Both the position numbers and the translations under genes were made by a program. A stretch of DNA of 64,000 nucleotides. Origin: Rahnella woolbedingensis (lineage in GTDB: Bacteria; Pseudomonadota; Gammaproteobacteria; Enterobacterales; Enterobacteriaceae). The notes under the pieces are model-generated. The model did not search any database, was not told where the DNA came from, and saw only the letters and a list, made by a program, of their open reading frames with translations. This document shows positions 3,951 to 17,957 of the stretch, piece by piece (the stretch's first letter is position 1; the number at the start of each line of letters is the position of its first letter). The stretch lies in the NCBI RefSeq assembly GCF_003602095.1, contig NZ_RAHH01000010.1:62001-126000 (forward strand), in the 5' to 3' direction.

Positions 3951-3967
3951 AAATGGTCCCTACAGGG
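3951..3967. repeat. Candidate left attachment site (attL/R core)
   Basis: The bases AAATGGT then CCCTACAGGG match the tRNA-Arg 3' end on the other side of the element (AAATGGTacgCCCTACAGGG, 21255-21274) apart from a 3-base gap. The position just outside the TACCCCCA boxes fits a degraded duplicated tRNA 3' end. The short core and the gap leave some doubt. Confidence 0.6.
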
Positions 3968-4028
3968 TTAGATATAAATAGCTAATAAGCTGTTATTAAA
4001 CACAATATAAATACAATATCTTTCTACA

Positions 4029-4048
4029 TACCCCCAAAGATACCCCCA
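4029..4048 (+). repeat. Left pair of TACCCCCA boxes (candidate integrase arm sites)
   Basis: Two TACCCCCA octamers at 4029-4036 and 4041-4048, joined by AAGA. The same arrangement in the same orientation recurs at 21125-21144 beside the integrase gene. Direct repeats at both ends of an element that uses a P4-type integrase with an N-terminal arm-binding domain are best read as arm-type binding sites. Confidence 0.65.
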
Positions 4049-4254
4049 ATTGTTTTTGTGTGGCTCTTTTTATGACGTTTTCCATCTGTTTTGAAGGTAG
4101 AAAAATCATGACTAAAATTTTCTCGTACCCTTATTGTAGGATAGATGTATCCACAGTATGTAATCAGCCAGCCATGAGAATGGTAGCCCTCAAAAAAGAA
4201 ACACTCAGCTACTTTGCATCAGATAAACCCAGCTCACTAAGGATCCATTATTCA

Positions 4255-4719
4255 ATGAAACATAAACTTTTAGCCGCCGCCCTTATGTTCGCCTTGCCTG
4301 CAGGAGCAACCACCACTCACTTAATAGTCTGCGAACCTGCCAATAAAAATGACCAATCAGCTACTGGTATTTGGCCTGCCCCGTATCTATCGCAAAGTAA
4401 ACTTTGCTTTAACATGAAAGCTCAGTCAGGAAGTACATGCGTCAAAAATGGGCTTACAACAACATGGTTCAGCGAGGCAGTTATAGTATCCATCGATGGT
4501 GAGTCGCAAGGTCGGGACGATACATGGTTTAGAGTGGTAAGGCCGGTTATTACTGATAAAGAAATTGAGTACACAATTGAAGCATCTAGAAATAGGAAAA
4601 CTTGGGGTGCGATGACCCATGTCTCAATAAATCGAATCTCGGGGCATGCTGTGGATTGGTTGATCAATGAACACGGGGGTACATCTTACGATTGCCATCT
4701 GGAAGGGAAAAAAATCTGA
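4255..4719 (+). CDS. Exported hypothetical protein, satellite cargo
   Basis: A 154-residue protein with a clear signal peptide (MKHKLLAAALMFALPAGA, cleavage expected after Ala near residue 18) and four cysteines in the mature part that could form two disulfides, so it is probably periplasmic. The frame is open further upstream to 4060, but the ATG at 4255 is the one that starts the signal peptide, with AAGGA 11 bases before it. It is the only long plus-strand gene in the left half of the element and lies just inside the left end, a usual place for cargo. I do not recognise a family. Confidence 0.65.
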   Translation: MKHKLLAAALMFALPAGATTTHLIVCEPANKNDQSATGIWPAPYLSQSKLCFNMKAQSGSTCVKNGLTTTWFSEAVIVSIDGESQGRDDTWFRVVRPVITDKEIEYTIEASRNRKTWGAMTHVSINRISGHAVDWLINEHGGTSYDCHLEGKKI

Positions 4720-4804
4720 TACAGCTTTGCTTTAACACTGTGCTGATGGTTATTGCGATGGAGTCCATACGTTCTTTTGTCTGGCGCTTGTGTTATTCGG
4801 GGGC

Positions 4805-4947
4805 GGTACGCACTTCTTTATCCGTTTCGTATTTCCCGGAAACTCGCTTTCACTTTGCGTACCATGCTCGCTGCGTTCAGGTCTGGCGCGGGATTATGCG
4901 GTACGCACTTTGCGGTTGCGTTCTCACTGCGTACCAGTTTGCGTACC
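4805..4947. repeat. Cluster of TGCGTACC repeats, left of the Abi cassette
   Basis: Five copies of TGCGTACC or its complement GGTACGCA at 4805, 4856, 4900, 4928 and 4940. The last two form ACTGCGTACCAG-TT-TGCGTACC, almost repeated at 6784-6805 on the other side of the abi gene. The region 4720-5021 holds no convincing gene. The repeats could bind a protein (terminase or replication) or be recombination points for cargo exchange. Confidence 0.55.
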
Positions 4948-5021
4948 GAGTAAGTTACCGGCGCGGCGCAGTTGGTAAGCAAGCAATTCCTTACATCTAT
5001 ACGTTGAAGCTGCCATGATTC

Positions 5022-5198
5022 ATGATATTGATTGTCACAGTACATGCAGGTTTCGAGAACAGGTGTGTTATTGCTGAACGGCTCAATGAGGCCGGTTATC
5101 AGAGTAAAGCGGGTAAAGCGTGGGATAAGGACATTTACAGCGCGTGGAAGCGGCACGGGGACAATGCCAACCTAATTACTGCCGCCCTGATCGGATAA
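5022..5198 (+). CDS. Small ORF resembling a recombinase helix-turn-helix, probably a remnant
   Basis: A 58-codon frame whose second half (VIAERLNEAGYQSKAGKAWD) follows the pattern seen in serine-recombinase C-terminal regions, where a helix is followed by a Gly-Tyr and Thr/Lys-Gly-Lys-Pro/Ala-Trp turn. There is no good ribosome site before the ATG and the upstream part is unrelated, so it may be a fragment of a larger lost gene. It sits tail-to-tail with the abi gene, 12 bases apart. Confidence 0.35.
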   Translation: MILIVTVHAGFENRCVIAERLNEAGYQSKAGKAWDKDIYSAWKRHGDNANLITAALIG

Positions 5199-5210
5199 CA
5201 CAAAGCTAAT

Positions 5211-6173
5211 TTATTGAATATCAAATAATTCCCGGGGGAATCCTTCATTGTTAGGGAACCCCATCGCCGTCAAATTACACCCGGGCAAGTATGGTTTTTT
5301 ATCTATCAAATCAGCAACATCTCTGACCCAATTAGAGCCAGGGCCTATCTCCTTCACCAATAACCATAGCACGGCTATCATCCCGTACATCCTTTCGTAA
5401 GCATCGTCGTTCATGCGTAAACGTTCGAAATAAGGATGGTTTGGTAATGGCATTATCTTAGGCTCGTTAACTTTGTTCCAGATACGTGAGTGATGAGCGC
5501 ACCGATTTCTAAGTACGTTCATGGCACTAAGCCAGTTTTGAAAGATAGCTCCATTACCAGGAGCTATACCAAGCCTAGAAAGTATCCCATTGCGGTGACC
5601 ATCCTTCAGCATGGCGTAGTATTTTGACATTAAGCCAAAATCCCAAACCTCAATAGCTACCCAGAACGGCAATCCTTCGTATTTACCTTCGTGCCACTTG
5701 ATACAATCCTCTCTGCTTTTGGCTATTTCTTTTGAATGCTTGGTAAGCCATTCATCTCTTGCGCTACAACGACCCCCGCGCCGAGGCGTCAAATGCTTGG
5801 GATTGATCAGCGTATCGTCCAAGTACCCAAGAGGGGATATTTTGCCAATTTCATGTGCAATGACGGAGCGAACATAAACCTCGACTCGCTCCAAGGCATT
5901 CATCATCAAAAGGCGTAGATTTTTATCGAACAAATACAGGTCGTATACATCCCGGAAGTTTGTCCCTTGGCGCACCTGATCCAATCGCGTTCTGATGTTT
6001 TCAGGGGTTATGTGAGGGATTCGACACGGATACCAAAAGCCCGAGAGGCGGTAATAGCCTACCTGCGAGATTTTTTTTATTGCATGGGGACGGTCGGGAA
6101 CATTCATGCCACGGGAAAGTAGCAGATCGATTAGTTGGTCATATTCTTTATGAACCTTTACCGGATCAGTCAT
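5211..6173 (-). CDS. Abi_2 (AbiD/AbiF) family abortive infection protein
   Basis: Candidate phage-defence effector of 320 aa. The N-terminus (YDQLIDLLLSRGM, then GYYRLSGFWYP near 40-50) and central FRDVYDLYLFDKNLRLLMMN are Abi_2 hallmarks. Near residue 222 the motif RNRCAHHSRIWN provides the R-x4-6-H of HEPN RNase-type domains, which act by cutting RNA. It is expressed from its own promoter with a structured leader and lies at the end of the satellite behind terS, a cargo position. The family is well known; the activity of this member and its trigger are inferred. A weak ribosome site (GGAAA) precedes the ATG. Confidence 0.9.
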   Translation of the reverse strand: MTDPVKVHKEYDQLIDLLLSRGMNVPDRPHAIKKISQVGYYRLSGFWYPCRIPHITPENIRTRLDQVRQGTNFRDVYDLYLFDKNLRLLMMNALERVEVYVRSVIAHEIGKISPLGYLDDTLINPKHLTPRRGGRCSARDEWLTKHSKEIAKSREDCIKWHEGKYEGLPFWVAIEVWDFGLMSKYYAMLKDGHRNGILSRLGIAPGNGAIFQNWLSAMNVLRNRCAHHSRIWNKVNEPKIMPLPNHPYFERLRMNDDAYERMYGMIAVLWLLVKEIGPGSNWVRDVADLIDKKPYLPGCNLTAMGFPNNEGFPRELFDIQ

Positions 6174-6196
6174 TCAGCGTTTCCATGCCCCAGATA

Positions 6197-6263
6197 TGAG
6201 AAGGCCCGGCCATAACAATCACCCATCTATGATGGGATCAAGCCAGTGGGCCGGGCTCAGTTG
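6197..6263 (-). ncRNA. Structured leader upstream of abi, candidate abiF-type RNA
   Basis: On the minus strand, right after a strong promoter, an 8-bp GC-rich stem (6249-6256 with 6204-6211) encloses a second perfect stem of 6 bp with a 3-base loop (6222-6227 with 6231-6236). No U-run follows, so it is not a plain terminator. Structured RNAs called abiF motifs are known upstream of abiF genes; the position and gene partner fit, but I compared no covariance model. It could be a separate small RNA, an RNA antitoxin, or a translational leader. Confidence 0.55.
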
Positions 6264-6269
6264 CTGCTA

Positions 6270-6297
6270 AATCTACACTACGTTGCTTTTATGTCAA
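6270..6297 (-). promoter_or_regulatory. Sigma-70 promoter for the abi leader RNA and gene
   Basis: On the minus strand TTGACA (6292-6297, perfect -35) is followed after 16 bases by TAGATT (6270-6275, -10). The predicted start near 6263 falls directly before the first stem of the structured leader. Confidence 0.7.
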
Positions 6298-6298
6298 T

Positions 6299-6337
6299 GT
6301 GACTGGTCACGCTAAATTGTGTACAGCTGGCTGTACA
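6299..6337. promoter_or_regulatory. Two dyad operators upstream of the abi promoter
   Basis: GTGAC-TG-GTCAC (6299-6310) touches the -35 box, and TGTACAGC-TG-GCTGTACA (6320-6337) is a perfect 8-bp dyad 22 bases further out. The larger dyad has TGT and ACA separated by 12 bases, the spacing used by Ogr/Delta activators of P2/P4-type phages, but its centre lies near -65 rather than -55. Helper-phage-responsive control is therefore only a suggestion. Confidence 0.5.
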
Positions 6338-6515
6338 TCAGATAGAAACACTATATGTAGTTGTTATAACTAATCACCGCCCCTACAGAGAGGGCTAAAT
6401 GTTTTTACCTATCAATGTTTATACTTTATCCGATTTCACTTGCATATGAGGATGGAGTCTCTGCCCAACCTAGGGGCTATTTCAAAATCTTATATCCATT
6501 TAGTAACAATCTGGT

Positions 6516-6704
6516 TCATCTCAGTGGTACATGTTTCTTCCACTGGTAGGCCGGTGCGGTCATTCGTTGACGCTGGCGCTCTTTCACCGCCAGAACATTT
6601 CTAATCTCATTTCTCACCTCGTATAGCGTCTGACTGTCCATCGGCTCACCGCTCTGGCTGGCTACCTGTAACATGGCGAGTTCTAACGTGTGCTGGCTTC
6701 GCAT
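6516..6704 (-). CDS. Small hypothetical protein downstream of terS
   Basis: A 62-residue basic protein (MRSQHTLELAMLQVASQSGE... ending KKHVPLR). A GAGG site sits 7 bases before the ATG at 6704, which supports translation. It follows the small terminase gene on the same strand and may be part of the late module. No family recognised. Confidence 0.5.
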   Translation of the reverse strand: MRSQHTLELAMLQVASQSGEPMDSQTLYEVRNEIRNVLAVKERQRQRMTAPAYQWKKHVPLR

Positions 6705-6783
6705 GATGTGGCCTCATGTTGTAGTGTGATTTCGCAATGCCTGCTTGCCAGGTGCTAAGGTTCGCATAGAGAACTGTCTTTTG

Positions 6784-6805
6784 ACTGCGTACCAGAATGC
6801 GTACT
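6784..6805. repeat. Right copy of the TGCGTACC double repeat
   Basis: ACTGCGTACCAG-AA-TGCGTAC, differing from 4926-4946 only in the two linker bases within the shared span. With the left cluster it brackets the abi gene, its leader and the small gene at 6516-6704. Confidence 0.55.
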
Positions 6806-6851
6806 TTTCTTAATCTGGAAATCATCATGCGGGATTACCCCGCATCTACAT

Positions 6852-7454
6852 CTATCCCATCAGCTTGCGGTACGCTTCGGCGGCTTCGTCAGCGGTAAGA
6901 TTGGTTGTCTGAATTGCTCCGCCATTCGGCCCGCTAAGTTCGGTTTTCTTCGGTGCTTCCCAGCCGCGCATTTCTGCCAGTTGTTTGATGGCCGCCTTCG
7001 GGTCGTGAAGTTTCAGTTTAATGCCGTCTTTACCCGTTGATAGTTCAGCGATAGCGGACAGGTGCTCTGGCTTTATTTCTTCGATAGGTTTGAATTTCCA
7101 TGATGCCTGATAGACCGGCTCGCCGTTCTCGTCCTCGCCTATCTGAAAATTCCCCCAGGTCACGATATCCTGAATGGTCGTGCGTCCCATCGCTGAGAGT
7201 CGTGAGATAGACTCTTCGTAGGTCATGAAGGCTTCATTCAACGTTTCATACTGAACGGCTTTCAAAAAGGCCTGCACGTTCCTATTTGAACCTATCTGGC
7301 TGGCTTTAGAGCGTTCAGTATCGCCTTTGGCTTTGCCACCTGCGTTCCGGTATGCCTGCGTTTGATTGTCGCCATTAAGCAGCTGGGTAACGAAGCGCTT
7401 CTGTAATCTCGTAAGGGTATCGAAAAGCGTTTTTTGTTCATCTGATAGGGTCAT
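6852..7454 (-). CDS. terS: Phage terminase small subunit
   Basis: A 200-residue TerS of the Terminase_2 type. The N-terminus has the helix-turn-helix DNA-binding pattern (LQKRFVTQLLNGDNQTQAYR, about 17-36, then KASQIGSNRNVQAFLKA), the middle carries an alpha/beta oligomerisation region, and the C-terminus ends in a short helix suited to contact the large subunit. No large subunit is present in the element, so it would have to partner with the helper phage enzyme, as PICI-encoded TerS proteins do to divert packaging to satellite DNA. It is the last structural gene before the abi cassette. Confidence 0.85.
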   Translation of the reverse strand: MTLSDEQKTLFDTLTRLQKRFVTQLLNGDNQTQAYRNAGGKAKGDTERSKASQIGSNRNVQAFLKAVQYETLNEAFMTYEESISRLSAMGRTTIQDIVTWGNFQIGEDENGEPVYQASWKFKPIEEIKPEHLSAIAELSTGKDGIKLKLHDPKAAIKQLAEMRGWEAPKKTELSGPNGGAIQTTNLTADEAAEAYRKLMG

Positions 7455-7593
7455 TCCAACTCCTTAAAACCTTGCGCATGACCTGCTGGCGCATTGGTTT
7501 TTTGCATAACGGACTCAATTTTTAAAGCGGCTCACGATAAGTAACAAAGTCCAAATAGAATTAACCTCCGTCACTTTCTTGGGTGGCGCATCT

Positions 7594-8358
7594 TTACTGC
7601 GGCTTTCCGGTCTGTCCGCTGCCCGTCTGTACGCCGCTGTGAACATGATTCTGTAAGCTCTTGCCGCCAGCGGTAACGTCGTTGGTAACGGTGATCGGCC
7701 CTAGCATCGTCGCGGCGCCGCCGCCATCGCCCATACCCTGTGAGAGATTGCCGTTAATCGTCACGTCGCCGTTGAGCGTGATGGTCGGTGCGGTAACGGT
7801 GATGCTACCAGCGGCCTGTGCCGTGAGGTTGCCGGATGTTTTGAGATTGATAGCGTGGTTGCCCGGATTCAGCTCAACATAGGCACCAGCATCATCGGTG
7901 CGCAATTGCACGGCGCTGGTGCTGATACCGCTGATTTTCTTTGTCTGAGACTGCGGCCCGGGGATAACGAACGCATCAGAGATGTCTAAAACTCTGCTAT
8001 CTGCTCTCTCCTGTACGCCTCCGTTTTGCCACCAGAAATCAATACTACGCGACGAAAAAACAATCAGGCATTCGTCACCTTCTTTGAGGGGGAAAGTTAA
8101 CGTAACCCCGCCTCCGCGAGGGAATATGACGGGTAAATCAGTGAGGATTGGATACCGGACAGATTCATACTGGCAATCTTCACTAACAGTACCCGGCTTG
8201 GTGAGCTTTGCTATAATGGCTATATCAACATCGCAGGTTACTGTTTCTGGGTCGAATGAACGAATTATGCCGGGCAACACATTGTTTACGTACGCTTTGC
8301 TATTGTTAATAATAAGCTGCGTTACATCCTGTTCGCCTGCTGGTCGAATGAATGGCAT
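7594..8358 (-). CDS. Baseplate spike protein, Gp138 N-terminal domain family
   Basis: A 254-residue tail-spike protein. The N-terminal half (about 15-115) fits the Gp138 OB-fold: VNNVLPGIIRSFDPETVTCD, then FPRGGGVTLTFPLKEGDECL, IVFSSRSIDFWW. The rest is a beta-helical needle built of Thr/Asn/Gly repeats (LTAQAAGSITVTAPTITLNG) and ends in HVHSGVQTGSGQTG, where His-Val-His could hold a metal at the tip. Such spikes pierce the outer membrane on myophage baseplates. It lies 10 bases downstream of the exported protein gene and in one run with the hub gene. A stand-alone spike in a satellite is unusual. Confidence 0.85.
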   Translation of the reverse strand: MPFIRPAGEQDVTQLIINNSKAYVNNVLPGIIRSFDPETVTCDVDIAIIAKLTKPGTVSEDCQYESVRYPILTDLPVIFPRGGGVTLTFPLKEGDECLIVFSSRSIDFWWQNGGVQERADSRVLDISDAFVIPGPQSQTKKISGISTSAVQLRTDDAGAYVELNPGNHAINLKTSGNLTAQAAGSITVTAPTITLNGDVTINGNLSQGMGDGGGAATMLGPITVTNDVTAGGKSLQNHVHSGVQTGSGQTGKPQ

Positions 8359-8368
8359 TTTATTCCCC

Positions 8369-8713
8369 TCAGCCCTTTACTCGCGAACAGTCAAATGTGC
8401 CAATAATCCGACCCTGATTCATATTGGTGCGGATAAGTTCGACGTTCAGCCAGCGTTTATTACTACCGTCTGGGTGAATGTATTCGAAGCCATACATGTT
8501 ACCGTCACTGGCAGGCATGAGCGTCATTTCCACTTTGGCGCCATTTTTGCCGAACTCGGTTATTTTCTGAGATGTAACAAACTCCCCGTTAATTTTTGAC
8601 ATTGAGTTTTCGATTATTTCAAATCGAAATCCCCCGCACTGCATAGTGATAATCTGCGCGGCATGACTTGCCCCCGCACTTAAAATACCAACCAGCAATA
8701 TGATTTTTTTCAT
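8369..8713 (-). CDS. Exported small protein between hub and spike genes
   Basis: A 114-residue protein with a signal peptide (MKKIILLVGILSAGASHA, cleavage after Ala 18) and two cysteines in the mature part that may pair (CGGFRF and FDCSR). It starts 2 bases after the hub gene and ends 10 bases before the spike gene, so it is co-transcribed with tail parts. I do not recognise a family. A lysogenic-conversion or superinfection-exclusion role is possible because periplasmic moron proteins often sit within tail operons, but nothing in the residues shows it. Confidence 0.7.
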   Translation of the reverse strand: MKKIILLVGILSAGASHAAQIITMQCGGFRFEIIENSMSKINGEFVTSQKITEFGKNGAKVEMTLMPASDGNMYGFEYIHPDGSNKRWLNVELIRTNMNQGRIIGTFDCSRVKG

Positions 8714-8715
8714 TC

Positions 8716-9810
8716 TTAACCCTGTTTATTCATAAATGAGCTAGAAGGCACATCCGTACTTCCTCGAGCCTCACAGGCCAGATCCATGTACCATGCCTGC
8801 CCGCGAGTGTCGCCCGTGTAACTGATATATCGAACCTTATAAACTCCATCGGTGGCTACGCTGGCAGGTTGGGATGTTGCCGGGGCATTAATCAGGTTAC
8901 CGTTTTCATCTCTAATCTTGGTTATCGGTACCAGATTGCCGTTTATATCTTTCTCAACGAAACGGCCACTGAATAAATCCTGTTCTGTTAACTTATTGCG
9001 ATACACCGAAGCCTGATCCAGCTGAATAAGCCCGTTCAGGAGTATTTCGGAATTAATCAGGCACCGCACATTGACGCCTGCGCCGATGGTCTGCTGTGGC
9101 ATTCCAATCAGACCGGTGTTTGAATTTAGGACTACAGCCTCATGCGTTGCTCTGTCCCTTGCCACAATATCGACTTTTCCGTAATTGAATTGCCAGGTAG
9201 CTTTACACTGCGTCGCTATTTCATCGAGATAATTATGGACGTAACCAAAGAGTGCGCGACCACGTGGAAACACCGTCGACGGGAATTCGGGGACGATGCC
9301 ACGGGAAATTCCGTAAGGTTCTAACCTTCTCATAAGCTCGATATAAATATCTTCCGTGGTGTAACCCTTGCTGATAGAGGTGTTGATAAACGCATTGGTA
9401 AACGCTTCTACAGAGTCGCACGCCTGTACCTGAACCCACGAATCAACAGGATTGTCCTTTCCGGTCACCGTAAAGCGAATATCTCCGCTAAAAATGACAC
9501 CATAATTTGAGCCGTTGGAATTCCCGACTTCACTGGTGGGTATGTCCCGCGCGATACCAACATCGCTGGTACGAACATCTGGCGCAAGGCCGTCATAGCC
9601 TGCGATTAGTACAATTTTGGCAAACTCTCTCTGCATAATGCGGTTTTGCGTCTGAGGTGAAAGGTTGTAAATCTTGACCGTGCCAACAGCTGGCCACTTG
9701 TTGTCATTACGCTCTACTTCAAAAGTAACTTTGAAATCACTGAGGCTGATACCTTTTCCATTTTCATCGAGTAGCCTTAACTCGAAGTGACGCATCCAGT
9801 TCTGACTCAT
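8716..9810 (-). CDS. Putative baseplate hub protein
   Basis: A 364-residue phage tail protein. The N-terminus (FELRLLDENGKGISLSDFKV, then FEVERNDNKWPAVGTVKIYN LSPQT) is the beta-barrel pattern of hub proteins in small myophages, followed by a stretch on RFTVTGKDNPVDSWVQVQAC and a module with IYIELMRRLEPYGISRG and DEIATQCKATWQFNYGKVDI typical of gp44/gpD-like hubs that clasp the spike. It precedes the Gp138-type spike gene with only the exported gene between, which is the expected hub-spike order. Its ATG overlaps the stop of the small gene upstream (ATGA). Family placement rests on pattern, not on a search. Confidence 0.75.
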   Translation of the reverse strand: MSQNWMRHFELRLLDENGKGISLSDFKVTFEVERNDNKWPAVGTVKIYNLSPQTQNRIMQREFAKIVLIAGYDGLAPDVRTSDVGIARDIPTSEVGNSNGSNYGVIFSGDIRFTVTGKDNPVDSWVQVQACDSVEAFTNAFINTSISKGYTTEDIYIELMRRLEPYGISRGIVPEFPSTVFPRGRALFGYVHNYLDEIATQCKATWQFNYGKVDIVARDRATHEAVVLNSNTGLIGMPQQTIGAGVNVRCLINSEILLNGLIQLDQASVYRNKLTEQDLFSGRFVEKDINGNLVPITKIRDENGNLINAPATSQPASVATDGVYKVRYISYTGDTRGQAWYMDLACEARGSTDVPSSSFMNKQG

Positions 9811-9974
9811 GCTTTCAGCCCCTCCAGCGCTTTATCCATCAATCCACGGGCAATGACGTGAATAGTTGGCGCAACACCCAGCGGTGATTTTATGCGCTCT
9901 TGTTCCTGAATCTTTTTGATAGCGTCTAACTGGTCACTGCTCAGTAAGACGACTTTAACGTTTGTTTTACTCAT
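9807..9974 (-). CDS. Small protein, probable ribbon-helix-helix regulator
   Basis: A 55-residue product (MSKTNVKVVLLSSDQLDAIK...) with a perfect ribosome site (AGGGGG, 5 bases before ATG). The order strand (VKVVLLS), helix (SDQLDAIKKIQEQERI), helix (VAPTIHVIARGLMDKALEG) is that of Arc/MetJ-type DNA-binding proteins. It is the first gene behind the late promoter and is translationally coupled to the hub gene (ATGA), so it may autoregulate the tail-terS module. Confidence 0.65.
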   Translation of the reverse strand: MSKTNVKVVLLSSDQLDAIKKIQEQERIKSPLGVAPTIHVIARGLMDKALEGLKA

Positions 9975-9999
9975 GGCACCCCCTGATATTTATACAGGT

Positions 10000-10027
10000 A
10001 TTATAGTTTCATTTATCGCAATAACAA
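10000..10027 (-). promoter_or_regulatory. Promoter of the tail-terS module
   Basis: On the minus strand a perfect TATAAT (10000-10005) with TTGTTA (10022-10027) 16 bases upstream; predicted start near 9993, about 20 bases before the first gene. A small dyad AACG-CTAT-CGTT (10027-10038) adjoins the -35 box and could bind the small regulator. Confidence 0.6.
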
Positions 10028-10103
10028 ACGCTATCGTTGCGTTTTGTGAAAGGCTGGGTGATTTTGAAGCTTGTGCCCAAAGGCCATTAATCGAACACCG
10101 CAC

Positions 10104-10322
10104 TTATCCTGCGTATCGCGCCATCGCTTTATATTCCCGCCTGCGTCTGGCTCTGTCAGCCAGCGGATCACCAACCTTTGAAAGGCATTGTTCACGGCGT
10201 TTTATGAGCCACTCGCGGGCATCTTCGCTTTGGTGCTGATCGAATACTGCCAGCCACCGGCTAGCCGCTCTGTAGTAAAGCCCGGACTCTTCCAAATGCT
10301 CGGCCTTATCGTCTCTTATCAC
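10104..10322 (-). CDS. PerC-like transcriptional regulator
   Basis: A 72-residue protein with the PerC family pattern: AEHLEESGLYYRAASRWLAV early, then DAREWLIKRREQCL and an Arg-rich tail. PerC proteins are small DNA-binding regulators named after the EPEC plasmid activator and common in prophages. I prefer GTG at 10322 (GGAG 6 bases before); TTG at 10328 is possible. It follows ssb by 29 bases and could switch between the replication and late modules. Confidence 0.7.
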   Translation of the reverse strand: MIRDDKAEHLEESGLYYRAASRWLAVFDQHQSEDAREWLIKRREQCLSKVGDPLADRARRRREYKAMARYAG

Positions 10323-10351
10323 TGGCAACTCCAGTAGCCTTAAAGCCCGGA

Positions 10352-10801
10352 TTAATCATCAAACGGTGGGCGTTGGTCAAACTCGTTTTGGTAAACTTCC
10401 CAACCCGGCGCGTGGTTTGGCGGTGTGCCTTGTGGGGTGGGTGGCTGTCCTTGCGCCGTGCCTGCGGTCTTCTGCGCGCCAGCGTGAACTGTACGTGCGC
10501 TGATAACACTATCGGCAATAACCTGTGGCGCTTCTTGCTGGGTGCCGTCCTGCGCCTTCCACTGGTTAAGCTGCATATTACCGGCAACACTTATCAGGTC
10601 GCCCTTCTGGTGCTGCGCCAGCAATTCCGCCTGCTTTCCGAAAGCCACTACGCCCAGCCAGTAAGTGGCCTCGCCGTTCTGTGCTGAATGGCAGGGAAGC
10701 GCAACGGCCAGGCGAGCCATCGCCATATGTTTATTGTTCGCTGTGGTGCGCGTCTGTGGATCTGCGACTAAGCGCCCGTATGCTGATATTTGTGCGGTCA
10801 T
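10352..10801 (-). CDS. ssb: Single-stranded DNA-binding protein
   Basis: A 149-residue SSB for satellite replication. The OB-fold runs from residue 1 to about 105 (ISAYGRLVADPQTRTTANNK; ATYWLGVVAFGKQAELLAQH; KGDLISVAGNMQLNQW). A Gln/Pro-rich linker follows, and the tail RPPFDD is an acidic tip that differs from the usual DDDIPF end. Its ATG overlaps the stop of the upstream gene (ATGA at 10798-10801). Together with the primase it forms the replication module. Confidence 0.9.
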   Translation of the reverse strand: MTAQISAYGRLVADPQTRTTANNKHMAMARLAVALPCHSAQNGEATYWLGVVAFGKQAELLAQHQKGDLISVAGNMQLNQWKAQDGTQQEAPQVIADSVISARTVHAGAQKTAGTAQGQPPTPQGTPPNHAPGWEVYQNEFDQRPPFDD

Positions 10802-11184
10802 TGTGTTTTTTCCTTTTCGGTATATTCACCGATTATTGCCAGTGTCATATCAAACAGTTCATCAGCAGCACACCTGGCATCAGGGATACTCAAATCGTAT
10901 AGCGTCATAAACGAGTAGGTTATTGCTCTGGCTGTTTTTGCTGTGGCATATCTGAGATAGATTTTCTCTGCGCGCGCCTCGATGTCCTGCCTGAAATCAT
11001 CACGACAGAATAACCAGTTATGCGAACACTGATAGGGTTCATTAATCCAGGTGATATCTGCTTTTGTGGTTCGGTACCAGACAATGAGCACCGGGTATTT
11101 ATGTTCATCACAGTAATCCAAATGATCTCCCGGAACATACAGGCACGGACGCCCTTTAGCTTCAACATACTTCTTGATAGTCAT
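10798..11184 (-). CDS. Hypothetical protein coupled to ssb
   Basis: A 128-residue soluble protein, unrecognised. The ATG at 11184 is chosen because GGGGTGGGA sits just before it; the ATG at 11196 lacks a site. Features are a Cys/His/Trp-rich first half (RPCLYVPGDHLDYCDEHKYP, then SHNWLFCRDDF) and a helical second half. It lies between the iteron origin and ssb in one operon, so a replication role is likely but not shown. Confidence 0.6.
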   Translation of the reverse strand: MTIKKYVEAKGRPCLYVPGDHLDYCDEHKYPVLIVWYRTTKADITWINEPYQCSHNWLFCRDDFRQDIEARAEKIYLRYATAKTARAITYSFMTLYDLSIPDARCAADELFDMTLAIIGEYTEKEKTQ

Positions 11185-11229
11185 TTCCCACCCCATATTT
11201 TATATTTTTTGTATATATGCAAAAGCAGT

Positions 11230-11519
11230 CGGTTCAGTCGGTTTTCCGGTTCACTATTGCCAACCACTTGAATCATAATAAAAATCACGTCTTTCTTTGA
11301 ACCGGAAATGCTGTTTTCCGAGTCGGTTCACCCGGTTCAAATCCGGTTTACGGTGCCTTCTGTCCAATTTGCTAGCCAGTAAATAATCCGGTTCAGAATA
11401 GTATAAAGTCGGTTCATTTAACGATAAATCCGGTTCATAGTCGGTTCATTTAAAATGAATTATTTTATTTAATATCAGCCACTTGTTCATTTATATCTGT
11501 ATCTGAACCGACTGAACCG
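11230..11519. other. Replication origin with CGGTTCA iterons
   Basis: Eight direct CGGTTCA copies (11230, 11247, 11324, 11333, 11389, 11410, 11431, 11442) and three inverted TGAACCG copies (11298, 11504, 11513), plus the variant CGGTTTA at 11344, in 290 gene-free bases. Three copies from 11410 to 11448 lie about one or two helical turns apart beside AT-rich DNA (11449-11500). The array directly follows the 3' end of the primase-helicase gene, the arrangement of P4/PICI origins where the initiator binds iterons. Confidence 0.85.
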
Positions 11520-11545
11520 GATGATTTTACTCGTGTGGGCGCATA

Positions 11546-14323
11546 TTATTCACTTTCCGCACTGTCCGGTGCGTACATCAACACATAAAATCGTTGCTGT
11601 TTATCTCCAACACGCAGTGTTTTCCGTGTATGCCCCCCGTCATGATCTGCCCACAACATGCCAGCATCAATTAGCACACTAGCGAATGTTTTATAGTTAA
11701 CGCCCTGTGATATTTCTTCCTGGAAGGCTTGCCGGAAGGTGTGAAACTTCATGCGTCCAGTAACTTTATCTTCTTCACGATAACCCGCCAGTTTCTTAAT
11801 CGGCAGATCACGCGCATCCGTCTCAGGGTGTGGAAGATAACGGCTAAACCCATAAGCATTTAGGAATCCCTCTGCCTGCTCGATAATGCGCTGAATCTCT
11901 TTATTGCCGGTACCGAATTCCTGCACCCAAAGATTGAAGTTGTACTGGATGGCATCCCGGCATTCCTGTTCACTCCAGCCGGTGATCACTCTACCCATCA
12001 ACAATGCCGCCTCCAGAATGGCAAAGCGGTCAGCTACGCGGTGAACTTGCTCACCATAGTCAGCAGGGATCAGAGATAGCCAACGGGTTGCTGCGGTTTT
12101 CAGTGCGTCGTTGACCTCCTGTTTGTGTTCTGCCAGCCAGCGGATCCATTCCCGGCCTGCGGCTCCGTGGTTGGCTTCCCAGCTCTGTTTCAGGGCCCAA
12201 GCATGTTGCTTACCATCTTTGTGTTCATGGTGAACGACAGATTTTTCCATTGGCACATTCAGCAGGCGTACCAGCTGGCCCGCATTAGGGCGAATCCCTT
12301 CATTAAGCAAAAATGTTTCGATATCGTGCTCACCGGTACTGATAGCCACCGTTCGCCAGTGTCGTAGTGCCCGGTTACCGCCTTCAGCTTTTGATTGGAG
12401 CTTCCCTTTGCCGTTGAACAGGGTATAGGCGCTGGTTGCTACATCCTGTGCCCGTGCGCCCTGCCCGACTTCATCCAAAGGCAATAGGCCGTCATTGTGG
12501 GCCTCTGCTTCATTAGCGATACCCAGCGCCGTTCCGTACCATGTCAAACGCAGTAAATCAGGCTGACCATAAAGGCTGGTAGCAATATTGGCAGTGGTAG
12601 TTTTCCCTGCACTGGAACGGGCAAATAGGTGAACGCCAAACCCATCAGCTTGTACCAGTCCCACCAGCGGCGCAGCAAGCGCGGTGGCAATTCCCAGCAT
12701 CATAGATGGATTGCCCCGAACCAGACGGGCCACGCTATCCCGCCAACTTTCAACAGTTCCATGTACGGAATAACCAGCAGCGGCAGCACTGCCACCACGA
12801 AACAATACGGGCTGGTCGGGTGTGCCGATAACTTCACCATCCGGCATGATATAGGCACCACAGTGCCAGCCAGAACGAGGCGTTACACTCCATAGTTCAC
12901 GGGTGCCGGTACGTTGTAACCAGTCTGCCAGTACGGCTCGCAACTGGTTTTTGGTTGTGACGCTTACCCCACCAGCTTTCAGTGAGCGCCAACCCTCACG
13001 TTCGCCAATATCTGCGGCAGGAATAGAACGGGTAACTGGTTTATCTGCCCCGACAGGGATCCAGCAGAGAATGAGATAATCGTCGGACTCGTAACGTCCC
13101 AATCCGACGACTTCCAGTGGTGAGCAAAGCCACGCTTCATTGTTGATGATCTCGCCACTCTCTTTGTCCACCTTGGGTGTTATCCAAAAAACGCCATCTT
13201 TTCGGCTTACAACGTGAGGCTTAAGAGGATCAGCGCCCTGATGGTCTTTTTTACCGCCTTCAATGGCTTTAAGTTGAACGGTCACGGCTTTCCCCTGCGG
13301 TTGATACATGGATTCGTTAAAAGCGGTTATGGCGGCGTCAAGCCCGTTTTGATGGCGGTAATCATCCCAATCGGCCTCGTGCTCTGTCGGTGGTAGTGAT
13401 GCCCACCCGTTCACTGATTTTGCGGATTTTTCGGTGGAGATAAGCCCAATGTTTTGTTTCGGCTTTCCGTTTTCGTCAAGTTCTCCCGGCATGTGCCAAT
13501 CGTTATCACCGGCAATGATGATTTGCGCGTCTGGGTGTTGCTGGCGCATGAGTTGAGCCACGGGTAGCAGATTGCCCGCGTCGATTGCTGCCACTGTGAG
13601 GGCATCAGGCCGCATCAGGTGTGCCGTCAGTGCTGAGGCTAACCCTTCGGCAATGATTATGCTCTGTGGCTTCTCCTGTGCGTTGACGGCGTGAAAGGCG
13701 CCTTTCTTCGCAGAACCAGTTAAAAGACGCTTTACCCCCATTGGGGTAATAGTCTGCGCGGCGGTCACCGTCCCAAATTCGTCATAGAGCGCCAGCAATA
13801 GCGAACCGTCGGGCAGAACTGGATATGTGAAACCATCCAGCCCCTTAGCAATGAGGTATGCGCTTTCGCCCGGCTTTGCCTGCGCTGCCATTGCCTGATA
13901 TTTTCCTGTGAAGACTTTGCGGCGTTTCGATGTTTCTGTGTCCGCCCGCTGCTGGCGCTCCTGCTCACGCTGCAGACGTCTGGCTTCCATTTGCTCACGC
14001 CTTTGGCTGGCTGCTTCGTGGTTGGTTTCTGTTACCCGGTAATCAATACCTATCGTGTCAGCAACAATCCGCGCCGCTTCTGAAGTGTCGCAGCGGTTCA
14101 CCTTCGCTACTAAATCCAGCCCGTCACCAGCACCGCATTGGTTGCAGAAATGGGAACCACGCCCGCCATCGTCAAAGCGGAAACGGTCATTTCCACCACA
14201 CGCCGGGCAGGTTGAGTGCTGGCGCGGTGATTGCGGAACGGTAATGCCAGCCAATGACAAAACGTCAGGCCAGCGCCCTGCGGCTGCGGCGGTCACTTCG
14301 CGAATTAGGTCAATATTTCTCAT
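11546..14323 (-). CDS. Toprim primase / DUF927 helicase replication protein
   Basis: Satellite initiator of about 925 aa joining primase and helicase. A zinc-binding domain comes first (CPACGGNDRFRF and HFCNQCGAGDGLDL, about 40-72), then a Toprim region (SIIIAEGLASALTAHLMRP, then IIIAGDNDWH, about 220-275), then the DUF927 ATPase with a Walker A motif (ARSSAGKTTTANIA) and a Walker B-like LPLDEVGQGA. The start at 14323 has AAGGGA 6 bases before it; the frame is open to 14416 without support. The gene sits next to the iteron array it should recognise. It is longer than P4 alpha (777 aa), which has a different helicase end. Confidence 0.9.
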   Translation of the reverse strand: MRNIDLIREVTAAAAGRWPDVLSLAGITVPQSPRQHSTCPACGGNDRFRFDDGGRGSHFCNQCGAGDGLDLVAKVNRCDTSEAARIVADTIGIDYRVTETNHEAASQRREQMEARRLQREQERQQRADTETSKRRKVFTGKYQAMAAQAKPGESAYLIAKGLDGFTYPVLPDGSLLLALYDEFGTVTAAQTITPMGVKRLLTGSAKKGAFHAVNAQEKPQSIIIAEGLASALTAHLMRPDALTVAAIDAGNLLPVAQLMRQQHPDAQIIIAGDNDWHMPGELDENGKPKQNIGLISTEKSAKSVNGWASLPPTEHEADWDDYRHQNGLDAAITAFNESMYQPQGKAVTVQLKAIEGGKKDHQGADPLKPHVVSRKDGVFWITPKVDKESGEIINNEAWLCSPLEVVGLGRYESDDYLILCWIPVGADKPVTRSIPAADIGEREGWRSLKAGGVSVTTKNQLRAVLADWLQRTGTRELWSVTPRSGWHCGAYIMPDGEVIGTPDQPVLFRGGSAAAAGYSVHGTVESWRDSVARLVRGNPSMMLGIATALAAPLVGLVQADGFGVHLFARSSAGKTTTANIATSLYGQPDLLRLTWYGTALGIANEAEAHNDGLLPLDEVGQGARAQDVATSAYTLFNGKGKLQSKAEGGNRALRHWRTVAISTGEHDIETFLLNEGIRPNAGQLVRLLNVPMEKSVVHHEHKDGKQHAWALKQSWEANHGAAGREWIRWLAEHKQEVNDALKTAATRWLSLIPADYGEQVHRVADRFAILEAALLMGRVITGWSEQECRDAIQYNFNLWVQEFGTGNKEIQRIIEQAEGFLNAYGFSRYLPHPETDARDLPIKKLAGYREEDKVTGRMKFHTFRQAFQEEISQGVNYKTFASVLIDAGMLWADHDGGHTRKTLRVGDKQQRFYVLMYAPDSAESE

Positions 14324-14333
14324 TTCAATTCCC

Positions 14334-14933
14334 TTAGTGAGCCGTTGGTGTTTCCGGCCAGCCTTCGGCGTTAACCTTCTGAATGAAGCCGTCATGTAAA
14401 ATTGCCAACGACTCACGCCCCCACTGAGACAAACGCAAATTACCGTTGAGGGGATCGGCTTCGGCCATGTGTTGATAGAGCTTCACTATTTGGTCATGGG
14501 CCTTAACAGCGCTGAACCTCTCAAAAGCCATACCCTCGATATGGTTTGCCAAAGCGAAACGCTCAGTTGCCGGGTAAATAACAATGCCGCCGTACTGCCC
14601 GCGATAGACTGCTGCTTTCTCTGTCGTTCCATCCATTTTGGTGGCATCAATGGTGCCGTGTTTCGCCAACTGTTCATCGATAAACAGGCAGGCCACCAGC
14701 CAGCGCCAGACGATTACCGCCTGCTCGTCGGACTGCTTAAACCAGCCTTTTTTACTCGCCTGAGCGATTTCCGATACCACACGCAGCCCATCAGACAGGT
14801 AGTGGTCATAGTGACCCTCCTCAAGCTGTCTGATAGCCGCTGAGTATCCGATCTGCTGTTTGCCTGCGTCGGCGCGTAACACAATGCTGATACCGGCCGG
14901 GGTTGCTTTAATGTGGATAAATTTGCTCTTCAT
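14334..14933 (-). CDS. Hypothetical protein upstream of the primase
   Basis: A 199-residue soluble protein without a recognised family. Its start overlaps the stop of the DUF4222 gene (ATGA at 14930-14933) and it ends 10 bases before the primase start, so it is translated as part of the replication operon. The C-terminal half (LRLSQWGRESLAILHDGFIQ) looks helical. A replication accessory role is inferred from position only. Confidence 0.7.
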   Translation of the reverse strand: MKSKFIHIKATPAGISIVLRADAGKQQIGYSAAIRQLEEGHYDHYLSDGLRVVSEIAQASKKGWFKQSDEQAVIVWRWLVACLFIDEQLAKHGTIDATKMDGTTEKAAVYRGQYGGIVIYPATERFALANHIEGMAFERFSAVKAHDQIVKLYQHMAEADPLNGNLRLSQWGRESLAILHDGFIQKVNAEGWPETPTAH

Positions 14934-15103
14934 TTGACCTCCGGGATCAGCGTGTATTGTTCAGTAAAGTGATGGACTAGCATAAATGCCGGGCTGGTAT
15001 AGCCCTCGCGAACGAAAGTCACACGACGGAATGACACCGACCGGACTGTGACCACGTCGCCCTGTTTATCCTGATAACGTTCATTTGGCATTGGCTCACG
15101 CAT
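14930..15103 (-). CDS. DUF4222 family small protein
   Basis: A 57-residue protein starting MREPMPNERYQDKQGDVVTV, followed by a short strand-rich part (RRVTFVREGY) and a closing FTEQYTL. This matches the DUF4222 pattern of small prophage and satellite proteins: a Tyr-x-Asp-x-x-Gly start, central basic strand and aromatic end. It overlaps the gene on each side (8 bases upstream, ATGA downstream). Function unknown. Confidence 0.7.
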   Translation of the reverse strand: MREPMPNERYQDKQGDVVTVRSVSFRRVTFVREGYTSPAFMLVHHFTEQYTLIPEVK

Positions 15104-15296
15104 GGGCTTTCTCCCTCTGTGCTTGCTCTTCGATAAGCCATGCCGCGACTGAACCCACCAGATCGCAGGCTATAACTACCGCAGTTTCAATATCGCAAGT
15201 GTCCATATCGTCGATTACCTTGCGAAGCATCAGCAGGGTTACATTCGCCTGGTCAGCGCGATTAGCTGCCTGCTGGATTGTGATTTCATGCGACAT
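15096..15296 (-). CDS. Small helical protein in the pre-primase cluster
   Basis: A 66-residue, strongly helical protein (MSHEITIQQAANRADQANVT...). The stop overlaps the next start in the sequence ATGCGTGA, so translation is coupled. Its size and design resemble the two genes upstream, and the cluster may have grown by duplication. No family recognised. Confidence 0.6.
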   Translation of the reverse strand: MSHEITIQQAANRADQANVTLLMLRKVIDDMDTCDIETAVVIACDLVGSVAAWLIEEQAQREKAHA

Positions 15297-15480
15297 GGTT
15301 CACCCCCGTTGCCGCCCTCAGGGATTGATGAACCTCTTGGTTGATATCGCATGCGAGACTAATCAGGTCGATAAGCTGCGGCGAACACTCGTTGCAGGCT
15401 TTTTCCATAATGGTTTCGTAAAGCGAACAGGCAAGGCCGGCGCGGTATTCGGCAACGTCTAAAGCAATTGGCTCACGCAT
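15286..15480 (-). CDS. Small hypothetical protein
   Basis: A 64-residue protein from the ATG at 15480 (MREPIALDVAEYRAGLACSL...). The frame runs further to 15549 but the ATG at 15480 has a GGAGGT site and overlaps the preceding stop. It holds three cysteines and is mainly helical. It overlaps the next gene by 11 bases. Function unknown. Confidence 0.6.
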   Translation of the reverse strand: MREPIALDVAEYRAGLACSLYETIMEKACNECSPQLIDLISLACDINQEVHQSLRAATGVNHVA

Positions 15481-15676
15481 GGCGTACCTCCGTGGCTTTT
15501 TGAAGGTGTGATAGCGCTTCATGCATAAGACTGTGCACAGCGGCCACACGATTAGCTTCGTAGTTGTCGTTTATCGTCAGGGTGTCCATCCACATATCCA
15601 GTACTGCGATGGCCTGATTACCGTATGCCAGTGCGTTTTCAGCATGGGTGACTACTTCAAAGGTTTCTTTATGCAT
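15473..15676 (-). CDS. Small helical hypothetical protein
   Basis: A 67-residue helical protein (MHKETFEVVTHAENALAYGN...; ends VRHA). The end overlaps the next start as ATGCGTGA, the same junction used between the 15286-15480 relatives and DUF4222. It overlaps the Icd-like gene upstream by 8 bases. No family recognised. Confidence 0.6.
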   Translation of the reverse strand: MHKETFEVVTHAENALAYGNQAIAVLDMWMDTLTINDNYEANRVAAVHSLMHEALSHLQKATEVRHA

Positions 15677-15854
15677 GGCGCACCTCCACCGGAAGGCGAG
15701 CGGTGAAGACCATCACAAAACCAGTGGGAGACATTTCACGTGCTGCGTGCTCGTCAGGCGCGGTGATGTGGATAATGGCACTGCCAGTCGCGCAGAGAGC
15801 CAGAAAACGAAAGCGGTACTGATATTTCGGGTGAGTTTGGGTATGCTCTTTCAT
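15669..15854 (-). CDS. Host cell division inhibitor Icd-like protein
   Basis: A 61-residue protein (MKEHTQTHPKYQYRFRFLAL ... SPTGFVMVFTARLPVEVRHA). This pattern, with HPKYxYRFRFLAL, a beta-rich middle containing ITAPDEHAARE and a closing F-x-ARLPV, is the C-terminal module of Icd-like/Ash proteins found in P4-type elements. The ATG at 15854 has GAGG 6 bases before it. The frame is open much further (to 17114), but a plus-strand gene pair and a chain of hairpins lie across that extension, so I take the short form. Division inhibition is known for phage P1 Icd and is only inferred here. Confidence 0.7.
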   Translation of the reverse strand: MKEHTQTHPKYQYRFRFLALCATGSAIIHITAPDEHAAREMSPTGFVMVFTARLPVEVRHA

Positions 15855-15977
15855 AGCTGCCTCGATACTTATTCTATCGTTGGTGGTAAGACGCCTCGGT
15901 ACTGCTCGAACAGTCCGGGGCGTTGCCTTTTGGTATGCACCTGTCATACACTTGGTTGCCATTTCAAAGTAATCAGG

Positions 15978-15997
15978 TGTCAACCAAATGTCAACCA
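15978..15997 (+). repeat. Tandem TGTCAACCA repeat over a start codon
   Basis: TGTCAACCA at 15978-15986 and 15989-15997, 11 bases apart, about one helical turn. The second copy includes the ATG of the ribbon-helix-helix gene. Such spacing suits cooperative binding of that dimeric repressor to its own start region, also covering the promoter of the divergent Icd-like gene. Confidence 0.5.
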
Positions 15998-16167
15998 TCG
16001 AAATCAAAGGTAAAGGTAACAAGCAGATCGCTTTGCGCGTGGAGCCAGGTTTAGAAGAAGGCATCAAGCAAGCATTGGCGCAAGATGGAGACGCCTCTGT
16101 ATCCGCTTGGATTAAGAGAATCATCCGCAAGGAATTACAATCACGCGGCATCGAGCCAAAAGGATGA
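15988..16167 (+). CDS. Ribbon-helix-helix DNA-binding protein (Arc/CopG type)
   Basis: A 59-residue protein on the strand opposite to its neighbours. Strand QIALRVEPG, helix LEEGIKQALAQDG, and helix SVSAWIKRIIRKELQSRG give the RHH fold used by small repressors. It is divergent from the Icd-like gene with a 133-base gap, the arrangement of a genetic switch. The membrane peptide gene starts 3 bases after its stop. A repressor of the minus-strand early operon is the likely role, by analogy. Confidence 0.75.
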   Translation: MSTIEIKGKGNKQIALRVEPGLEEGIKQALAQDGDASVSAWIKRIIRKELQSRGIEPKG

Positions 16168-16170
16168 GCA

Positions 16171-16323
16171 ATGAAAAAAATTGTCTTAGGGTTAGCAGTA
16201 ATAATAATCGCACTCATTATTTTTAAATCGTGTTCTTCCTCCGCTTCTGTGTGTGGAAGTAAAGAGCATGATTTATTGCGTTCCGTTTGTGAAAAGTCTC
16301 TTGGTGTGGATCCAAAGGGCTGA
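16171..16323 (+). CDS. Small single-span membrane peptide or lipoprotein
   Basis: A 50-residue peptide starting MKKIVLGLAVIIIALIIFKS followed by CSSSASVCGS and a short soluble tail. One hydrophobic helix (about 4-18) is followed by a cysteine at 21; a lipobox is poor, so a membrane-anchored peptide with two or three cysteines is equally likely. A strong AAGGA site sits 7 bases before the ATG, within the end of the RHH gene. It could be a toxin or exclusion peptide paired with the regulator. Confidence 0.65.
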   Translation: MKKIVLGLAVIIIALIIFKSCSSSASVCGSKEHDLLRSVCEKSLGVDPKG

Positions 16324-16414
16324 ACAGGCTTACTCCGGGTAAGGCTGTTAACCGACTCGCTTAGAGACAGGAGGTTTTGCGCGTATCTTTTAGCGATGCA
16401 CAAATGCCGAGCTG

Positions 16415-16992
16415 ACCCTCTTAAAGAGGGTTGGTTATCCTGCAACTTTGCAACTTCATGATTTGTAAGGTAAGCCAGAGTTGGCTTACGAGCACTGTAC
16501 ATACTTCTACGGTGTTTATTTTCTTGATGACTGAAAAAATAGCCATTCTCCAATGCTGGATGCTCTTGATTTCCTTCATGATTCAAAAATGGCACCATCT
16601 CAAGGGCAGCATTCGCAGTGCTGCCTTTTTCTTTGCCTATAGGTTGCTGATTTACATAGGTACATCCGCAACGGATGACCAGCGAACCTAAGTAATGATT
16701 ATGTTCAGTCGAACCGGAATAGTTTTCCGGTTTAAGTGAACACGAACAGTAATCGTGTTTGATTGCCCGACGCCCTGCAACGCAGGTTTTAGAAGAAATC
16801 AACGGGTTAGCTGATTCCGTCGATTCACCGGAATTAAACAAAATCATCCAGTTAGTCTTTTCTCGCGTTTCGCGATAATCAAAACTAGGGCGGTACGTTA
16901 GACTCCCGGGCAGAGATCGGGAAACTCCGAAAGAGTTGCGTAAAGTTTGCGCGGGTCTAAAAGAGACGCGCAACTGACCGGAAATAACCGGG
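16415..16992. other. Hairpin-rich stretch, candidate immunity/leader RNA region
   Basis: Between the membrane peptide and antirepressor genes lie at least seven perfect short hairpins: 16415-16431, 16470-16489 (8-bp stem), 16605-16625, 16712-16732 (8-bp), 16739-16759 (7-bp), 16774-16786 and 16863-16875. Several copies of ATT(T)CCGGT occur on the minus strand. P4 keeps its immunity in a small RNA (CI) transcribed from the untranslated leader of the replication operon, and this region holds that place. The RNA itself is not identified. Confidence 0.5.
16604..16630 (+). terminator. Rho-independent terminator on the plus strand
   Basis: GGCAGCA (16605-16611), 7-base loop, TGCTGCC (16619-16625), then five T. 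It would end transcription of the RHH/membrane-peptide pair or of a small RNA made from 16330-16600. Confidence 0.7.
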
Positions 16993-17943: not shown

Positions 17944-17957
17944 ATTTTCAGGCTCCG

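Follow-up and report, generated by a model that had tools for sequence, protein, structure and literature searches.

The 64,000-nucleotide stretch of the Rahnella woolbedingensis genome analyzed here (contig NZ_RAHH01000010.1, positions 62,001 to 126,000, hereafter the window) harbors a phage satellite which, behind a small leader gene named orf55, carries genes for a baseplate hub, an exported protein (EXP), a central spike and a small terminase subunit (TerS). The satellite is bounded by two copies of a 10-bp att core, CCCTACAGGG, at 3958-3967 and 21265-21274, the latter inside a tRNA-Arg gene (which we take to be argU, with folD as its neighbor). Counted from the tRNA, the gene order is integrase, DUF6387 protein, AlpA, AntA, P4-like primase, single-strand binding protein (SSB), PerC, the late cluster and Abi_2 (Table 1). 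The first of these along with AlpA, AntA, the primase, SSB and the att cores bear out the satellite status proposed in a preliminary description of the window. Two 20-bp repeats, at 4029 and 21125, are probably arm-type sites.

The hub, EXP, spike and TerS genes were found to be intact, as previously described, and their families were confirmed by Pfam and PHROGs. Residues of the apex and of the hub core are retained in the satellite spike and hub. The first gene of the cluster, overlooked earlier, is orf55, whose last 4 bases are shared with the beginning of the hub gene; judging by eye from the alignment, its product looks like a ribbon-helix-helix protein. A single transcript from orf55 to TerS, in line with the operon suggested before, is plausible, with TerS beginning 139 bases behind the spike gene. 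By scanning 20 open reading frames (ORFs) of the element against PHROGs, and 18 of these also against Pfam (small ORFs excluded), no virion families were found beyond hub, EXP, spike and TerS. Likewise, when 19 structural proteins of phage SEN34 were compared with the element, the single match was a protein overlapping EXP. The claim that the satellite has no other virion genes thus stands, in that none was recognized with PHROGs, Pfam or the SEN34 proteins. No tail fiber was found in the window.

A candidate helper, as far as its gene content tells, is a SEN34-type prophage on contig 6 of the same genome. Here a second hub, 57% identical to that of the satellite, is found within a structural operon with the order TerS, TerL, portal, head, sheath, tube, tape measure, s17, s18, hub, EXP, spike and wedge (gene names taken from the SEN34 record). 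The s17 family is Dit-like in Pfam, based on its first member, while s18 is probably the tail plug, going by two unnamed members scanned with Pfam. Beyond this operon, frames resembling lysis, replication and repressor genes were seen by eye, and an integrase frame at the prophage gave a 26% match to the satellite integrase. The remaining counterparts in satellite and resident prophage are 32% (EXP), 52% (spike) and 71% (TerS) identical. In TerS, the last 57 residues are identical at 54 of 57 positions, the remainder at 88 of 143, and the DNA of the last 60 codons at 154 of 180 positions. Such near-identity is not common to the other TerS proteins compared, as the C-terminal part matches a Pantoea satellite at 31 of 55 and SEN34 at 20 of 42 residues. 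This pattern would fit recombination at this site, selection exerted by a large terminase that both use, or a combination of the two, and a TerS C-terminus matching that of the resident prophage would also fit a TerS-driven diversion of packaging.

Out of 31 genome loci retrieved with the hub, the four nearest (L015-L018; loci are numbered with an L throughout) are satellites, two of which start at a contig end. At least two further structural genes were found in 26 of the remaining 27, leaving one locus of 5.5 kb (L035) unclassified. Two scans of IMG/VR gave 82 loci (for the hub alignment, the best 80 of 580). In 68 of these, two or more other structural genes of SEN34 type were present, and in 14 they were not; three of the 68 (L090, L106 and L145) turned out to be satellites located inside a SEN34-type prophage. 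Scans with a satellite TerS-like protein and with the primase added 135 loci, 20 with a hub match, although some of these hubs are the helper's. Satellites with a hub follow the order tape measure, Dit-like, plug, hub, EXP and spike, the first three being variably present, and one locus (L230) has EXP and spike with no hub match. The proposed survey of sister satellites turned out against a remnant, as the order of hub, exported protein and spike is kept with no flanking tail operon of their own. Satellites were expected to encode a baseplate tip only rarely, which is not borne out in this lineage.

A hub tree was made from 112 of 123 distinct sequences, after rows shorter than 320 residues and identical copies had been dropped. 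In this tree, the 23 hubs from satellites group in a single clade, apart from the 89 hubs of phages (Shimodaira-Hasegawa-like approximate likelihood ratio test 98, short search), spanning at least Serratia, Pantoea and Rahnella, the genus of the window. When two hubs found by way of orf55 only (L353 and L367) were added, 25 hubs fell in one group (FastTree 0.997). Many of the clade members were fetched by their similarity to the window hub, the ones obtained otherwise being L185, L223, L257, L267, L290 and L303 from other scans, and the two from the orf55 census. Satellite spikes also make up one group in IQ-TREE (99; one change). The ratio of nonsynonymous to synonymous substitutions (dN/dS) was 0.05-0.39 for the hub in 8 of 11 pairs and 0.06-0.39 for the spike in 9 of 11, these being the pairs for which it could be computed, and both genes are under purifying selection in them.

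Several sisters were found embedded in the late genes of SEN34-type prophages. The capsid gene is the most frequent location, with both gene halves present around L145 (1-15000), L184 and L261 and the right half only at L106, L185 and L187, while L090 lies inside a wedge gene and L099 inside a portal gene. The gene halves share short identity blocks, which by eye amount to 8 bases in the L145 capsid gene and the L090 wedge gene. The capsid block recurs in L106, L184, L187 and L261 and was not found in L185. These locations tie the lineage to a SEN34-type helper. For lambda-type late genes, phage-inducible chromosomal islands (PICIs) embedded in the helper have been described before (PMC10111431). 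Capsid, wedge and portal genes are further embedding sites, in a contractile-tailed helper.

The leader gene served as a handle on the wider family. In 50,697 phage records, two queries gave no match to orf55. Of 392 genomes from the family, that of the window among them, 27 matched an orf55 profile, as did 4 of 394 genomes from the order, two draws that overlap. The match in L366 contains a stop codon. Within the window and up to 20 kb around orf55 in the other 26 family genomes, entry modules were found behind orf55 in 15 of the 27, two of them broken (L346 and L356). SEN34-type Dit-like and hub genes occur in L346, where the hub is broken, in L353, at a contig end, and in L367, alongside EXP and spike, and a tape measure in L348, L351, L352, L355, L358, L359 and L371. 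P22-like ejection proteins follow orf55 in L347, which is identical to an annotated E. coli locus, and in L363; Pfam identified two P22_gp7 members and two injectosome translocase members in the census. Internal-virion-family proteins, which we read as T7-like, occupy the same place in L369. Among 101 of the 114 census proteins, scanned with Pfam, no capsid, portal, large terminase, sheath or tube was found in the 25 families listed out of 35. In the IMG/VR data, 97 orf55 loci were found (redundant contigs included), 28 of which had the marker genes tried first; 13 of these 28 share a set of tape measure, hub and spike with the hub nearest to phage ZF40. Representatives of the remaining loci encode tape measures of siphophages, hubs of other kinds, and ejection or internal virion proteins resembling those of P22 and T7. 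The modules behind orf55 point to envelope passage more than to receptor choice.

Among 5426 complete E. coli genomes, 491 have a close relative of orf55, as found by a DNA search with one orf55 query. Five annotated regions were inspected, one chosen through an ejection-gene query, one as the best of two hits and three from a spread list. In all five, integrase, HTH/AlpA and DUF927 primase precede orf55, as does AntA/AntB in four, and the genes behind it are annotated as ejection, injection, DUF2824, transglycosylase or hypothetical.

Further arrangements were observed behind orf55 in the census and behind the spike in sister satellites. In L357 (2424-3436), a protease-like frame with the motif HEAGH follows orf55, and then an exported protein with a weak match to phrog_3443, the EXP family, and no hub match. 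Two unknown proteins, of about 225-270 and 150-170 residues, come after orf55 in L360, L365, L368 and L371; downstream of them lie a tape measure in L371 and a tail-fiber-like protein in L365. In many sisters, a helix-turn-helix protein of 171-175 residues with weak similarity to the small terminase family phrog_57 is found behind the spike, where the window instead has its Terminase_2-type TerS.

EXP, which lies between hub and spike, was modeled as a seven-stranded beta structure with a mean predicted local distance difference test score of 86. Pfam gave it a sub-threshold match to a toxin domain, Tox-HDC (E 0.031; 14.9 bits, with the cut-off at 21). We compared neighboring genes between pairs of loci with hubs at least 90% identical, pairs that are not independent of each other. 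EXP was less than 75% identical in 5 of 6 satellite pairs and 412 of 653 phage pairs, compared to 0 of 6 and 120 of 643 for the spike, 0 of 4 and 0 of 622 for s17, and 0 of 3 and 13 of 622 for s18. Between L138 and L145, the hubs are 99% and the spikes 100% identical, and EXP 54%. The variation is mostly located in the N-terminal half. This exchange of EXP between constant neighbors suggests a specificity factor. At a guess, EXP may be an exclusion protein that targets the tip, a parallel being Spackle of T4, which inhibits the hub lysozyme in the periplasm. A possible counterpart of EXP is found in E. coli EC2001, where the late genes of an orf55 satellite are followed by a protein assigned in the annotation to the Rap1a/Tai immunity family (L372:21457-21840).

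The explanation that we favor, and consider somewhat probable, is that the particles made by the satellite are chimeric, combining its own hub and spike with heads and tails of the helper, and are packaged with its own TerS. The cluster from orf55 to TerS would then serve as late zone to a Gram-negative PICI-like satellite parasitic on a SEN34-type myophage. Upon helper induction, the satellite hub and spike would substitute for those of the helper in tails whose other parts are the helper's, and satellite TerS together with the helper large terminase would direct satellite DNA into helper heads. The product would be a chimeric particle in which the parts that pierce the envelope and conduct the DNA are the satellite's own. 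From the sequences we infer incorporation of the tip into particles, the role of TerS, an advantage at entry and the function of EXP; that the satellite tip may replace the helper's is suggested by analogy, with PLE11 of Vibrio as precedent. The advantage thought most likely is entry where the entry parts of the helper are blocked, above all in helper lysogens. The satellite needs helper-bearing cells, and since this is where the helper's entry parts are most likely excluded, entry parts of its own would be an advantage. EXP, exported to the compartment that the tip reaches, the periplasm, would act as an exchangeable exclusion factor matched to that tip.

Passage of DNA through the recipient envelope is the role shared by hub and spike, by the tape measure and by the P22 and T7 ejection proteins. 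For the P22 ejection proteins, this passage and the evasion of SieA exclusion through changes in them have both been described (PMC10883804), and the tape measure is the relevant virion part in the case of SNIPE (PMC13190303). More tentatively, with less confidence than we place in the chimeric particle, the Enterobacterales might harbor a common satellite family with a swappable entry cassette behind one satellite-specific leader gene, whatever the virion type of the helper, by which its chimeric particles would bypass exclusion or defense aimed at the entry parts of the helper. The cassette would be hub and spike, a tape measure or ejection proteins, the hub class coming with a small exported factor.

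An alternative that we regard as unlikely, although it survives better than the others, is that a chimeric tail evades an antagonist of tail assembly, the helper hub or tape measure being blocked by a factor from the satellite or its host and the satellite copy resistant, in the way that the PLE11 tape measure is to Rta (PMC12987554). Tai proteins that block tail assembly are found in PICIs and P4-like satellites (PMC11364771). An E. coli satellite in which the entry genes are followed by a protein annotated as Rap1a/Tai family also speaks in its favor. However, ejection proteins of short-tailed phages sit behind orf55 as well, and we know of no role for these in tail assembly. Furthermore, PLE1 and PLE4 need their own tape measure despite being without Rta (PMC12987554), and no antagonist was identified in the window.

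Still less probable is interference, in which the satellite hub and spike poison helper tails as dominant negatives and are dispensable for the spread of the satellite. The divergence from the resident hub and spike noted above could be taken to agree with this, but the modules are kept under purifying selection with their apex and hub core residues, and as poisons, the ejection proteins that short-tailed phages use would be unexpected. Least probable of all is a decaying remnant of captured late genes with no present use, the dull alternative named at the outset, for even if capture clusters proposed to be partly lost over time are known (PMC10111431) and L346 and L356 look decayed, it is rejected as the main reading by intact genes, one hub clade across genera, dN/dS well below 1, and unrelated virion types' entry modules behind the same leader gene.

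A number of observations weigh against chimeric particles or against the family-wide cassette. The window has no tape measure, Dit-like or plug gene, so that the satellite hub must work with helper partners although the two hubs are 57% identical. Searched against the PDB by fold, the EXP model gave no match at E <= 0.001, the best being E 0.069. The promoter-like TATAAT site from which the operon was earlier said to start does not exceed chance, and since 12 promoter-grade sites were counted in the region against 9.6 +/- 3.1 in shuffles, it is not significant alone. In 12 of the 27 census genomes (L349, L350, L354, L357, L360, L361, L362, L364, L365, L366, L368 and L370), no entry protein was found among the proteins scanned, some of the loci lying at contig ends or looking decayed. 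Of these, L365 has a tail-fiber-like protein instead and L364 a TerS-like protein. In L356, the tape measure is cut after about 200 residues. The markers tried first were missing from 69 of the 97 IMG/VR loci, though many of them turned out to encode tape measures, hubs or ejection proteins of other kinds, and a group of 13 such loci (the L221 group) has only a 90-residue protein, with no PHROG match, and a TerS-like gene. The trees are not uniform either: the broken hub of L346 is phage-like (73.5% identical to a phage hub, compared to 51% for the best satellite hub), satellite spikes fall in three groups with three changes in FastTree, and the FastTree trees of s17, s18 and tape measure have four, three and three changes. 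For spike (FastTree), EXP, Dit-like, plug and tape measure, with three to four changes, no single satellite origin is hence shown.

Table 1. Features of the satellite in the window, with examples of one protein type from sister loci.
Feature	Position	Strand	Evidence or remark
Whole satellite	3958..21274	.	~17.3 kb between att cores
Abi_2 abortive-infection-like gene (cargo)	5211..6173	-	Pfam 4.2e-50
orf62, small gene	6516..6704	-	phrog_7271 1.9e-10; near end of many sister satellites
Small terminase subunit TerS	6852..7454	-	Terminase_2 2.8e-14; phrog_51 2.8e-25
Central spike	7594..8358	-	PF18352 N-terminal domain (presumably gp138) 8.5e-37; GpV Apex motif 5.9e-8
Exported protein EXP	8369..8713	-	signal peptide (by eye); phrog_3443 (function unknown) 2.1e-39
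Baseplate hub	8716..9810	-	phrog_196 6.2e-77; satellite hub clade member
orf55, small leader gene of late zone	9807..9974	-	found in satellites; no phage-record match
Promoter-like site before orf55	10000..10027	-	TTGTTA-16-TATAAT, 10/12 consensus positions
PerC-type activator	10104..10328	-	Pfam 3.9e-13
Single-strand binding protein	10352..10801	-	Pfam SSB 3.5e-17
P4-like primase-helicase	11546..14416	-	Zn ribbon, Toprim, DUF927 (Pfam); phrog_1139 2.4e-161
orf481, 481-codon frame	15669..17114		phage-repressor resemblance at C-terminal end only
AntA/AntB antirepressor	17107..17943	-	Pfam 5.6e-21
AlpA regulator	18378..18626	-	Pfam 5.9e-19
DUF6387 protein	18712..19734	-	likewise placed in E. coli UPEC132 satellite
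Tyrosine integrase	19878..21107	-	Pfam Phage_integrase 3e-26
tRNA-Arg(tct), integration site	21258..21334	-	ARAGORN
phrog_57-like HTH protein, sister locus	L138:12441-12956		
phrog_57-like HTH protein, sister locus	L099:12798-13325		
phrog_57-like HTH protein, sister locus	L017:2248-2775		

Regarding the rest of the element, the long frame of orf481 is doubtful, since its resemblance is confined to one end, and it may be a chance frame or a fusion. An exported-looking protein (phrog_26680, 4060-4719, + strand) adjoins the left att core and is probably cargo. In a megablast of the element against E. coli genomes and phages, no match covered 80% of it; the matches listed comprised the integrase region, for E. 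coli, and short segments from four phage records. Four further loci with related primases, on contigs 7, 13 (two places) and 30 of the same genome, are probably additional satellites. A SEN34-type prophage was also found on a contig labeled Chryseobacterium (Bacteroidota; L024), perhaps from a mislabeled or contaminated assembly.

In comparison with known satellites, the primase is 33% identical to P4 alpha over about a third of the protein, and its C-terminal part is a DUF927 domain. The capsid and regulation genes of P4 are sid, psu and delta, none of which had a match among the 20 element ORFs scanned with PHROGs or the 18 scanned with Pfam. Capsid-forming PICIs have their own capsid, portal and large terminase, and none of these was found in the element with PHROGs, Pfam or the SEN34 proteins. 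AntA is presumably a member of the Bro network, and the satellite shows, in order, an integrase and AlpA zone, an AntA zone, a replication zone with primase and SSB, and a late zone with hub, EXP, spike and TerS. The same zone order, i.e. integration-AlpA, Bro/Ant, replication and late, has been described for Gram-negative PICIs (Tommasini, Mageeney, Williams 2023, PMC10111431). That work also describes how PICIs capture late genes and integrate into late genes of the helper, the latter shared by some of the sisters, although the embedding sites given there are cognates of lambda late genes and the ones found here are SEN34-type genes. In the main text of that paper, the words "tape", "ejection" and "injection" are absent, and no conserved leader gene or theme of entry modules was noticed.

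The Brunovirus SEN34 and its relatives have homologues of hub, EXP and spike in the same order as the satellite, but set among tape measure, Dit-like, plug and wedge genes, and the satellite hubs form a separate clade. In the literature searched, which did not include bioRxiv and most subscription papers, entry modules were not described as a feature of Enterobacterales satellites among the papers listed. The nearest case is EcCIMP1 of E. coli MP1, with the helper Kapi1, which has AlpA, PerC and primase in common with the window. Behind its primase are genes resembling DNA transfer and DUF2824 proteins, much as in an annotated E. coli orf55 satellite, a likeness that is by description only; its authors propose a role in packaging (PMC11773190).

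The closest functional parallel is PLE11 of Vibrio cholerae, one of the phage-inducible chromosomal island-like elements (PLEs), whose particles contain the satellite tape measure and hub with the helper's absent (Mathur et al. 2026, PMC12987554). Deletion of the PLE11 tape measure gene lowered transduction by about 99.9%, the benefit there being escape from the satellite's own antagonist Rta, and the authors describe PLEs as the first satellite family known for chimeric tails (PMC12987554). What the two would have in common is a satellite baseplate hub used alongside helper tail parts. PLE11 uses its own hub, tape measure protein and tail assembly chaperone, of which the latter two were not found in the window, while some sisters have the tape measure. 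Lineage and helper differ as well, the present satellites have hub, EXP and spike behind orf55 and, in the window, their own TerS, and sister modules include ejection proteins of short-tailed phages. If our explanation is true, it would account for why such satellites keep mainly entry-type late genes, and each satellite with cargo would spread by rules of its own. The modules would also be a natural resource for testing how tape measures, hubs and ejection proteins are recognized by exclusion systems. What is new in relation to the PLEs is that the satellite lineage is an unrelated and common one in Enterobacterales, that its leader gene is conserved and that its modules cover more than one tail type; self-supplied entry machinery would, if the explanation is right, be a wider satellite strategy, in Enterobacterales as well as in the PLEs of Vibrio cholerae.

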